64,000 bases of DNA from Desulfarculaceae bacterium. Lineage in GTDB: Bacteria; Desulfobacterota; Desulfarculia; Desulfarculales; Desulfarculaceae. A program made the translations under genes and the position numbers. A model generated the notes under the pieces. The model ran no database searches, was not told where the DNA came from, and saw only the letters and a program-made list of their open reading frames with translations. Shown piece after piece: positions 35,936 through 61,936 of the stretch. The stretch lies in assembly GCA_020444545.1 (NCBI GenBank), contig JAHLKT010000001.1:62001-126000 (forward strand), written 5' to 3'. Positions within the stretch are counted from its first letter, which is position 1; each line of letters begins with the position of its first letter.

Positions 35936-37129
35936 ATGAAAAAATTATCAGAGATTATTGCCAATAATGAAGAATGGCTGATGGCCCGGATCCTTGCCTA
36001 TGCCAAGGAACACGACTATACCATGTACACCTCCACCCTGATGGAGGCCTGGCGCTTGTCCATATCCGGGCTTTCGGAATCTATTCTAACGGCCATCCAA
36101 AATTACCCGGATATTCCGGAGCTCTCGCCCGAAGAGGAGTTTGCCGACGACCCGGTGGCCCGCTTCGGCATTTATGAAGCCCAAAAACACCGCCGGCGGG
36201 GCGTGCCTCTGCCCATGTTCCTGGGGCTGATGAAGTACTACCGCCAATCCTACCTGGACTTGCTGGCCGCCCAGGACTGGCCGCCTGACACCTTGGCGCG
36301 CCACGCCCTTTTCCTCAACCGGGTCTTCGATCGCATTGAGATCAGCTTTGTCGCCGAATGGGCGGACAAAAGCCCGGGGCAGTCGTTGAGTGAGTTGCAA
36401 GCCGGCAACCGGTTCATGACCAACGAAAAAAACAAGTACCTGACCATTTTCGAGAGCATTCCGCTGCCGGTAATCATCCTCAACCCGGACGAAACCATCG
36501 ACAACATGAACCTGGCCGCGGCCATGTTTTTACGGGGAGAGGCCCTGGCCGGGGGGCATTATTACGCCCCGCCCGAGGAAATATCCCCAAAACATGCGGC
36601 CGCCGACCAGGGGCGCCTGGACGCGGTCGCCCTGTTCGACCTATTGCCTTGGCTGCCCCGGGAGCTGGACCGTTGCAAAAATGAAGGCCTGAAAAACACT
36701 CATTTTACGAAAGAGATCAACATCCTGGACCAAACCAAGCTCTTGGGGGTCACCATAACCAAGAGCCTCGACATCAGCGATAAATTCACCGGGACCATAA
36801 TCATCTTCGAGGACCTCACCCCCATCGCAAGAGAGCATCAGGCCCTGCTCGAACAAGAAAAGCTGAACGCCGCCTTGGAAACCGTGGGCATGGTCTATCA
36901 CGAACTCACCCAACCCCTGCAAGTGATACTCGGCATGTCGGAAATCATGCAACTCGACCTCTCCTTCTCCCTGGAGGGAAAAGAGCAGTTGGAGCAGATC
37001 GGCCTTGCCGCGCGCAAGCTCGCCAGCATAATAAATAAATTAGACAAAATCAAAACTTACAAGAACAAGCCCTACGTAGGCCAAGCCTCGATTCTAGACC
37101 TGGAGGAATCGGTCAAGAGCGAGGATTGA
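35936..37129 (+). CDS. RsbRD_N-PAS-DHp sensor protein lacking a kinase ATPase domain
   Basis: A 397-residue signalling protein. Residues about 8-150 resemble an RsbT co-antagonist (RsbRD) N-terminal domain (SPEEEFADDPVARFGIYEAQ, LPMFLGLMKYYRQSYLDLL). A PAS domain follows (about 165-290, FESIPLPVIILNPDETIDNM). The end is a HisKA-type DHp helix pair with the phosphoacceptor H322 in VYHELTQPLQVILGMSE. The protein stops after KPYVGQASILDLEESVKSED, with no N, G1 or G2 boxes of a HATPase domain. The following 190 bases hold no remnant of one. The region 35870-36000 is AT-richer than its surroundings. It shares its DHp and C-terminal signature with the protein at 60570-61088. Confidence 0.85.
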   Translation: MKKLSEIIANNEEWLMARILAYAKEHDYTMYTSTLMEAWRLSISGLSESILTAIQNYPDIPELSPEEEFADDPVARFGIYEAQKHRRRGVPLPMFLGLMKYYRQSYLDLLAAQDWPPDTLARHALFLNRVFDRIEISFVAEWADKSPGQSLSELQAGNRFMTNEKNKYLTIFESIPLPVIILNPDETIDNMNLAAAMFLRGEALAGGHYYAPPEEISPKHAAADQGRLDAVALFDLLPWLPRELDRCKNEGLKNTHFTKEINILDQTKLLGVTITKSLDISDKFTGTIIIFEDLTPIAREHQALLEQEKLNAALETVGMVYHELTQPLQVILGMSEIMQLDLSFSLEGKEQLEQIGLAARKLASIINKLDKIKTYKNKPYVGQASILDLEESVKSED

Positions 37130-60500: not shown

Positions 60501-60532
60501 AGGGGCTCTCCTTCGGGAGGGCCCCTCTTTTT
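60501..60532 (+). terminator. Terminator of the TRAP-usp operon
   Basis: AGGGGCTCTCC pairs with GGAGGGCCCCT (one mismatch) around a TTCG loop, followed by CTTTTT. The minus strand has GTTTGTTTTGG after the stem, so it may also end the converging gene. Confidence 0.9.
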
Positions 60533-60569: not shown

Positions 60570-61088
60570 TCAGTCCAGGTCCAGGATGTGCTGGTCCTTG
60601 TAGTAGGGCTTGCGGCGGTAGGCAGTTATCCGGTTGAGCTTGGTAATGAGCTGGGCCAGCTTCTTGGCGCTGTCCAGGATGTTGCTCAGGTACTTGTGCA
60701 GCTTGGAGTCTTCCGGCACATCGAGAAGGGCCATCTCGGCGGCCCCCATGATCACCTGAAGGGGCTGGTTGAACTCGTGGCTCACCGTCCCCGCCGTCTC
60801 CAGGACCACCTTCAGGCGCTCCGCTTCCAGCCGCCGGGCATACTCCCGGGACGACTCCCGCCAGCGGCGAACCGCGAAGGCCCCGAAGGCCAAGGACAGG
60901 ATGGCCAAGAGAACCACCACCTCGTCCAGTTCGTAGTCCTCGTAGTGGTGCACCGTGTCCACCAGCCACTCGAAAACGTCCAGCCGGGAGGAGACCCAAA
61001 ACACCACGCCCGCAATGAGCAGGATGACCAGCAGCTCCCGCATGGGATGGGAGGACGGCGACTTGGGGTTTTGCTCAGGGGCAGACAT
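60570..61088 (-). CDS. Membrane-bound DHp-only protein lacking a kinase ATPase domain
   Basis: A 172-residue protein with two membrane helices (about 17-34, RELLVILLIAGVVFWV, and 56-74, EVVVLLAILSLAFGAFAV) and a short coil. A HisKA/DHp helix pair follows with H104 in VSHEFNQPLQVIMGAAEMAL. The chain ends just after AYRRKPYYKDQHILDLD, without any HATPase motif. AGAGG precedes the ATG. The DHp and the ending (KPY....ILDL) match the end of the protein at 35936-37129. It is convergent with usp. A truncated kinase is possible, but no ATPase remnant is seen downstream. Confidence 0.82.
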   Translation of the reverse strand: MSAPEQNPKSPSSHPMRELLVILLIAGVVFWVSSRLDVFEWLVDTVHHYEDYELDEVVVLLAILSLAFGAFAVRRWRESSREYARRLEAERLKVVLETAGTVSHEFNQPLQVIMGAAEMALLDVPEDSKLHKYLSNILDSAKKLAQLITKLNRITAYRRKPYYKDQHILDLD

Positions 61089-61165: not shown

Positions 61166-61936
61166 CTAAATCTCGAATACCAAGCTGGGCTGGTCCTGAT
61201 CCGCAGCGGCCAGGCCGGGGGCGTGCCCGCCCGGGGCCAGGGCGGCCTTGGCGGCGGCCTCGGCCAGGTGGGGCAGGTTGTTCTGCTGGGAGATGTGGGC
61301 CAGGAGCACCTGCTTGAGCCCCGCGTGGCAAAGCTCGGCCAGAAGCCCGGCCCCTTCCTGGTTGGACAAATGCCCCTGCGGCCCGCGCACCCGCTGCTTC
61401 AGCCAGGGCGGATAGGAGCCCGAGGACAGCATCTCGGGGTCGTGGTTGTGCTCCAGGATGAGGCCGCCGCAGCCGCCCAGGCGCTGGGTCACCAGACCGG
61501 TGACCTTCCCCAAGTCGGTGCACACCCCCAGGCGGGCCGCTCCCGCGCTGATCACCAGGCCCACCGGGTCCACCGCGTCGTGGGACACGGTGAAGGGATG
61601 CACCTCCAAGCCGTTGAGGCTGAAGGTGGAGCCCGCCTCCATGGGCTGGTGGCGCGTCCCCTTCCTGTCCTTGGTGGCCGCCCAGGTGGCCGGGGTGGCC
61701 ACGGCCACGGCGTTCAGGCGCTTGGCCAAAACCCGCAGGCCCCGGATGTGGTCGCCGTGCTCGTGGGTGATGAGAATGGCTTTGATTTTGTGGGAGGGCA
61801 GGCCGCGCGCCTCCAGGCGGAGGATGGTCTGCTTGGCGCTGAGCCCGCAGTCGATGAGCAGGGCGCTCTCCCCGGCGGACACGTAGATGCAGTTGCCCTT
61901 GGAGCCGCTGGCCAGGGAGCAGAAGGTGAGCCCCAT
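61166..61936 (-). CDS. Metallo-beta-lactamase fold hydrolase (YycJ/WalJ-like)
   Basis: A 256-residue MBL-fold protein. It begins MGLTFCSLASGSKGNCIYVS, as in YycJ-like proteins, followed by LLIDCGLSAKQTILRL and the metal-binding motif ITHEHGDHIRGL. Further ligands lie in FTVSHDAVDPVG, VCTDLGKVT and LEHNHDPEML. Family members are putative 5'-3' exonucleases or phosphodiesterases. The ATG at 61936 fits the family N-terminus and lies one base after the dut stop codon, so the genes are coupled. Confidence 0.9.
   Translation of the reverse strand: MGLTFCSLASGSKGNCIYVSAGESALLIDCGLSAKQTILRLEARGLPSHKIKAILITHEHGDHIRGLRVLAKRLNAVAVATPATWAATKDRKGTRHQPMEAGSTFSLNGLEVHPFTVSHDAVDPVGLVISAGAARLGVCTDLGKVTGLVTQRLGGCGGLILEHNHDPEMLSSGSYPPWLKQRVRGPQGHLSNQEGAGLLAELCHAGLKQVLLAHISQQNNLPHLAEAAAKAALAPGGHAPGLAAADQDQPSLVFEI

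Follow-up and report, generated by a model that had tools for sequence, protein, structure and literature searches.

DHp-only proteins that end in a conserved β-hairpin form one large family, here called DHpT, among relatives of sulfate reducers. A profile spanning the DHp domain and the ending collected 197 distinct members. The architecture is found in P0001, a 172-residue protein encoded in the window, which is the whole 64,000-nucleotide stretch analysed from contig JAHLKT010000001.1 of a Desulfarculaceae bacterium. Judging from sequence, we put at roughly one in two the probability that DHpT proteins are kinase-less, sensor- or REC-gated phosphotransfer proteins, which would carry phosphate from Asp~P to other RECs.

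Anatomy of P0001 and its locus

The P0001 gene lies on the reverse strand at 60570..61088 and was assigned as a membrane-anchored DHp-only protein from its open reading frame, its translation and a Pfam HisKA match. The frame is intact. Two membrane helices precede a HisKA (DHp) domain that contains HEFNQPLQVIMG, and KPYYKDQHILDLD then stands directly before the stop; the chain reads MSAPEQ...SHEFNQPLQVIMG...KLNRITAYRRKPYYKDQHILDLD, followed by the stop codon. The PF00512 HisKA match covers residues 99–151 (E 3.6e-11), and nothing else in Pfam is significant. Neither PF02518 HATPase_c nor Hpt (PF01627) matches P0001 at E up to 10, and the frame stops after the hairpin. Of the two domains that make a histidine kinase, HisKA and HATPase_c, P0001 hence has the former but not the latter.

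All features of P0001 are on the reverse strand. The first membrane helix (residues 14–33; 60990..61049) is hydrophobic (RELLVILLIAGVVFWVSSRL) and coincides with an AlphaFold helix of the same extent. The second (about residues 54–72; 60873..60929) is continuous with a coiled coil in the AlphaFold helix 54–123. The DHp helical hairpin comprises residues 80–152 (60633..60851), as delimited by the HisKA match and a fold match to ZraS. The DHp domains of P0001 and ZraS align within 1.5 Å over 78 residues with a Z of 9.5, which is near the level of unrelated helical proteins. The PDB searches returned ordinary kinase DHp domains, also at fold scores near that level. By family conservation, His104 (60777..60779) is the predicted phosphoacceptor, and it is followed by E105 (+1) and Q108 (+4). 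The C-terminal signature YRRKPYYKDQHILDLD (residues 157–172; 60573..60620) is predicted to form a β-hairpin, with AlphaFold strands 157–162 and 166–171.

A universal-stress-protein-like gene is convergent with the P0001 gene, and an intrinsic-terminator-like hairpin (60501..60526, forward strand) lies between the two, just past the P0001 stop. No HATPase remnant is found downstream of the P0001 gene in the window. The upstream neighbour, separated by 77 bp, encodes a 256-residue metallo-β-lactamase-fold protein (61166..61936, reverse strand), YycJ-like by eye. The order of M16 peptidase, dUTPase-like, metallo-β-lactamase-fold and DHp genes is kept in genome G172, as are the gene sizes (locus L062); the neighbours were named by eye from sequence motifs, without family search. 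No two-component partner is visible beside the P0001 gene, which is an orphan at this locus. The two-helix membrane module (60873-61049) has the pattern EW....KYE.W..D......RRW.E, and no Pfam model matched it in P0001. As the module also heads two kinase-DHp proteins (L253, L255) and a third signalling protein (L254), it looks like a borrowed sensor module.

Nearly full-length orthologues of P0001 with the same ending are present in two genomes of the same genus, G172 (73%) and G248 (62%), and none was found outside the genus among 20 genomes sampled from the family. The dN/dS values against the two are 0.19/0.59 and 0.31/1.41, a ratio of about 0.2–0.3. The window encodes a sister DHp-only protein of 397 residues with a weak PAS match (35936..37129, forward strand), whose DHp and ending are at 36845-37105. 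It has HELTQPLQVILG and NKPYVGQASILDLE in common with P0001, the two DHp ends are 44% identical, and its HisKA score is just under the Pfam cut-off (25.4 versus 26.9). Within the genome, the match of five proteins reaches the last residue of the query or the one before it, and all five stop there or at most 20 residues on. They are P0001, the 36-kb protein, a 229-residue REC-DHp protein, a GAF/DUF484-type DHp protein of about 300 residues, and a 616-codon frame with PAS-like repeats recognised by eye. The full kinases of the genome match over the DHp domain only and then continue into HATPase; the shared terminal match of the five is therefore more than chance. The genome has 66 HATPase_c matches versus only five Hpt matches, all of the latter within long frames of 517–1069 codons, with none free-standing and the P0001 gene not among them. 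Outside the DHpT family, a 460-codon frame (L030:484-1863; G000:C3:185083) has a diverged DHp (HRVRNALVVLSG), ends soon after it and lacks an ATPase domain.

A conserved hairpin ending defines the family

Among the 197 members, 186 stop within 40 residues of the ending, and none runs straight from the ending into a HATPase of its own. Of the 11 exceptions, most carry on into REC or REC-GGDEF; in two, what follows is a second kinase, complete with HisKA and HATPase. In these two (L103:1558-3090 and L119:5224-7038), the DHp-only unit precedes the kinase, giving two DHp domains per chain. Because the ending is part of the profile, members were partly selected for having it, but not for terminating after it.

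At E 1e-14, a broader profile matched 61 of 158 Desulfobacterota genomes with one to five matches each, although a few matches covering only positions 3–77 look like ordinary kinases. In another collection, of named genomes, a separate search yielded 80 loci; all 80 are terminal, and most are from Desulfobacterota. It also returned contigs labelled Cloacimonadota, Latescibacterota, Raymondbacteria and Myxococcales; for occurrence beyond Desulfobacterota the evidence comes from individual contigs. The contig scan was built from closer sequences; alignment A2 had no sufficiently conserved stretch. Taken over the 197 members, the same ending occurs across many families and several phyla. No description of the family was found in the literature searched, whose reach left out subscription journals above all.

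The putative phosphoacceptor His is kept in 196 of 197 members, Glu+1 in 184, Asn+3 in 158, Gln+4 in 178 and Pro+5 in 196. T, S or N stands at +4 in 19 members, including a group from kinase-REC-DHpT operons. In the ending, Tyr is present in 183 members (Phe in 11 more), Ile in 185 and Asp in 179, followed by Ile or Leu. The resulting pattern Y.....I.D[IL], with Tyr, Ile and Asp each kept in more than 90% of members, makes the signature KPY....ILDL, first read from P0001 and the 36-kb protein, real and stronger than it first appeared. In the AlphaFold models of both P0001 and the REC-DHpT protein of L186, the second DHp helix is followed by the ending folded as a hairpin of two strands, which in L186 are 201–204 and 207–210. 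The pLDDT values are 85.7 and 89.8, respectively, from different alignments; both are monomer models, which do not display the dimer. From a comparison with typical kinases, the ILDL strand may be descended from the first CA strand. We considered the ending as mere CA-domain debris, which its conservation and hairpin fold rule out.

The preliminary description had seen in P0001 two membrane helices, the DHp domain of the 36-kb protein and no ATPase domain, and had read the pair as evidence against accidental truncation and for a family of dedicated phosphoacceptor or adaptor proteins. The open reading frame and the sequence are as it quoted them, the helices agree with the AlphaFold model, and Pfam finds only HisKA in P0001. 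In place of the two sequences that it knew, there are about two hundred distinct members, which do not generally continue into HATPase domains.

Input domains, fusions and operons

The N-terminal parts of DHpT proteins are PAS, GAF, HDOD, membrane modules or, in about 40%, REC. Among 82 non-REC members, HisKA PF00512 matches 81, PAS profiles up to 60, GAF 23 and HDOD 5; Cache, CHASE, MASE11 and propeller occur once each. The propeller stands together with Y_Y_Y domains, as is usual in hybrid kinases, in one scanned member, probably that of L069 by its length; two DHp-only proteins, L069:5983-9732 and L072:2259-6005, reach 1250 residues. REC is N-terminal in 61 of 171 members with a called gene, on both sides in six more, and only after the DHp unit in one. 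The N-terminal fused REC keeps Asp57 (40/40), Thr87 (40/40) and Lys109 (39/40), as well as the acidic residues.

An operonic REC or HATPase neighbour is present for 24 of 64 REC-DHpT genes and 7 of 85 non-REC members, compared with 20 of 750 (2.7%) other genes of the same loci (p 2e-17 and 0.014, respectively). In the typical REC-DHpT set, an unorthodox HisKA-HATPase-REC-(REC)-Hpt kinase is followed by REC-DHpT and sometimes by a single-domain REC of 128 residues. A simple role for REC-DHpT as a stand-in for a missing Hpt was dropped. Because the neighbouring kinases already carry an Hpt, DHpT would serve there as a third His or as output domain, not as an Hpt replacement. In a second set, one operon combines a complete kinase with a single-domain REC and a GAF/PAS-DHpT protein that has T or S at +4 (L098, L124, L127). 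These operons resemble kinase-Spo0F-Spo0B in layout; L102 and L132 are similar, but less clean.

Six single chains have the order REC-(PAS)-DHpT-REC-GGDEF without an ATPase, placing the DHp domain between two receivers (L080:4955-6658, L111:5095-6981, L113:5515-7164, L116:5074-7071, L128:206-2221 and L138:5536-7167). Five of the six retain the Asp of the second REC; in L080 this REC has lost both Asp and Lys. By domain order, such a chain may relay phosphate from Asp to His to Asp within one protein, with a diguanylate cyclase as output.

Discussion

In the mechanism that we propose, DHpT would dimerise through the DHp bundle. Having no ATPase, P0001 would not phosphorylate itself. His104 would instead accept a phosphoryl group from a receiver Asp, be it that of a hybrid-kinase REC, of its own fused REC where present, or of a free REC, and would pass it on to another receiver. 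Control of this transfer would fall to the N-terminal part, whether membrane module, PAS, GAF or REC, which gates the DHp domain of a normal kinase as well, and the β-hairpin perhaps closes the bundle and shapes a receiver-docking face where the CA linker would be. This Asp-to-His-to-Asp scheme with N-terminal gating is the simplest that fits all members. Several observations count against a relay: non-REC members, including P0001, are mostly orphans, with 7 of 85 having a two-component neighbour; the unorthodox kinases beside REC-DHpT already carry an Hpt; and the second REC of L080 is without its Asp and Lys. In the histidine kinase CrdS, Glu+1 serves the kinase activity and the +4 residue is needed only for the phosphatase activity, which the +4 substitution N375Q abolished to a level where none was measurable (PMC3510030). 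By analogy, the Glu+1/Gln+4 pattern fits a phosphotransfer-competent, phosphatase-poor DHp domain. Gln+4 also occurs in alignments of complete kinases, e.g., of FixL type, so it does not prove a loss of phosphatase activity.

Four other readings were weighed. It is unlikely that DHp-only proteins act as adaptors or dominant partners, which would heterodimerise with or dock on complete kinases or receivers and modulate them without passing phosphate, as in RetS-GacS and RocA-CovS. The DHp domain is indeed a dimerisation module, a complex of the GacS DHp with RetS has been solved (7n0e), the kinase-like membrane protein RocA acts on CovS (PMC7028121), and a two-component neighbour is lacking for P0001 and for most members without REC. 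However, RocA works without its His (PMC7028121), whereas that of DHpT is nearly invariant, and an adaptor role leaves the REC-DHpT-REC-GGDEF chains and the intact RECs unexplained. The near-invariant His, the REC fusions and the phosphorelay operons thus favour the dedicated phosphoacceptor of the two roles left open by the preliminary description, whose expectation of a family is supported by these sequences. Quite unlikely, too, is a split kinase following the logic of CheA3/CheA4, in which a separate ATPase, belonging to another kinase or to a HATPase-only protein, would phosphorylate the DHp domain in trans, and the DHp domain would then feed receivers. That HisKA and HATPase might reside on separate proteins has been suggested (PMC3591291), two members have a complete HisKA-HATPase kinase in the same chain, and the widely kept Glu+1, being a kinase-step residue in CrdS (PMC3510030), would suit trans-phosphorylation equally. 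Yet no consistent HATPase-only neighbour was seen at the member loci, and the adjacent kinases scanned are complete. Moreover, Spo0B and ChpT, phosphotransferases that have no kinase activity, have an acidic +1 residue too.

More doubtful still is a phosphate sink or phosphatase, which would damp signalling by draining receivers, either accepting their phosphate or hydrolysing Asp~P. Phosphate transfer from a receiver back to a DHp His is chemically nothing unusual, and T, S or N at +4, including in the kinase-REC-DHpT operon group, is compatible with phosphatase activity; the prevailing Gln+4 argues against it, CrdS N375Q having no measurable phosphatase activity (PMC3510030). We give almost no credence to accidental truncation of histidine kinases. 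Each member does have the N-terminal half of a kinase, but the same ending recurs in 197 distinct members from many families and several phyla, and it is a conserved hairpin of its own. For P0001, truncation or a frameshift is ruled out by the same ending in its orthologues and in the family, by purifying selection and by the lack of a HATPase remnant downstream.

Among known systems, phosphotransfer through DHpT would most resemble Spo0B and ChpT, in which a phospho-His on a DHp four-helix bundle without autokinase activity stands between receivers in a relay (PMC3433190, PMC9981736). The differences are that DHpT comes with diverse sensor parts or with RECs and that, according to the models, only a short β-hairpin follows its DHp domain, with no CA-like domain. 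Spo0B keeps a degenerate CA-like C-terminal domain. The same holds for ChpT (PMC3433190). The P2CS database has a class of 'phosphotransfer proteins' with HPT or HisKA and without HATPase or receiver (PMC2716373). P0001 and the 36-kb protein fit this definition and P0001 would be listed there, but it is a bookkeeping class that implies no shared ending or relatedness, and REC-fused DHpT falls outside it. Proteins of kinase-like architecture without HATPase have also been described as a family within the genome of the archaeon Archaeoglobus fulgidus (Galperin 2005, PMC1183210), a likeness drawn from their description, not from sequence. CheA3/CheA4 of Rhodobacter sphaeroides likewise have a phosphoacceptor on a protein without ATPase (PMC3591291), but their acceptor is a CheA P1 domain instead of DHp, and their partner is known. 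RocA and RetS are similar as kinase-like proteins that act on other kinases. The best reading, by analogy, is that DHpT would have a Spo0B/ChpT-like logic without the CA-like domain.

More tentatively, Desulfobacterota and some other phyla may have turned sensor-plus-DHp halves into sensor-gated valves, a second checkpoint in multistep relays that would include the REC-DHp-REC-GGDEF route to a c-di-GMP synthase. If phosphotransfer by DHpT is true, more than a third of the Desulfobacterota genomes sampled have one to five proteins each that kinase censuses misclassify, and a kinase's sensor half serves bacteria as a relay gate without becoming a kinase. Signals in these anaerobes would then be integrated along a route open to experiment; in the window's genome, kinases number in the dozens and Hpt proteins are scarce. 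The family would also be a natural setting in which to learn how a DHp domain functions when it has no ATPase.
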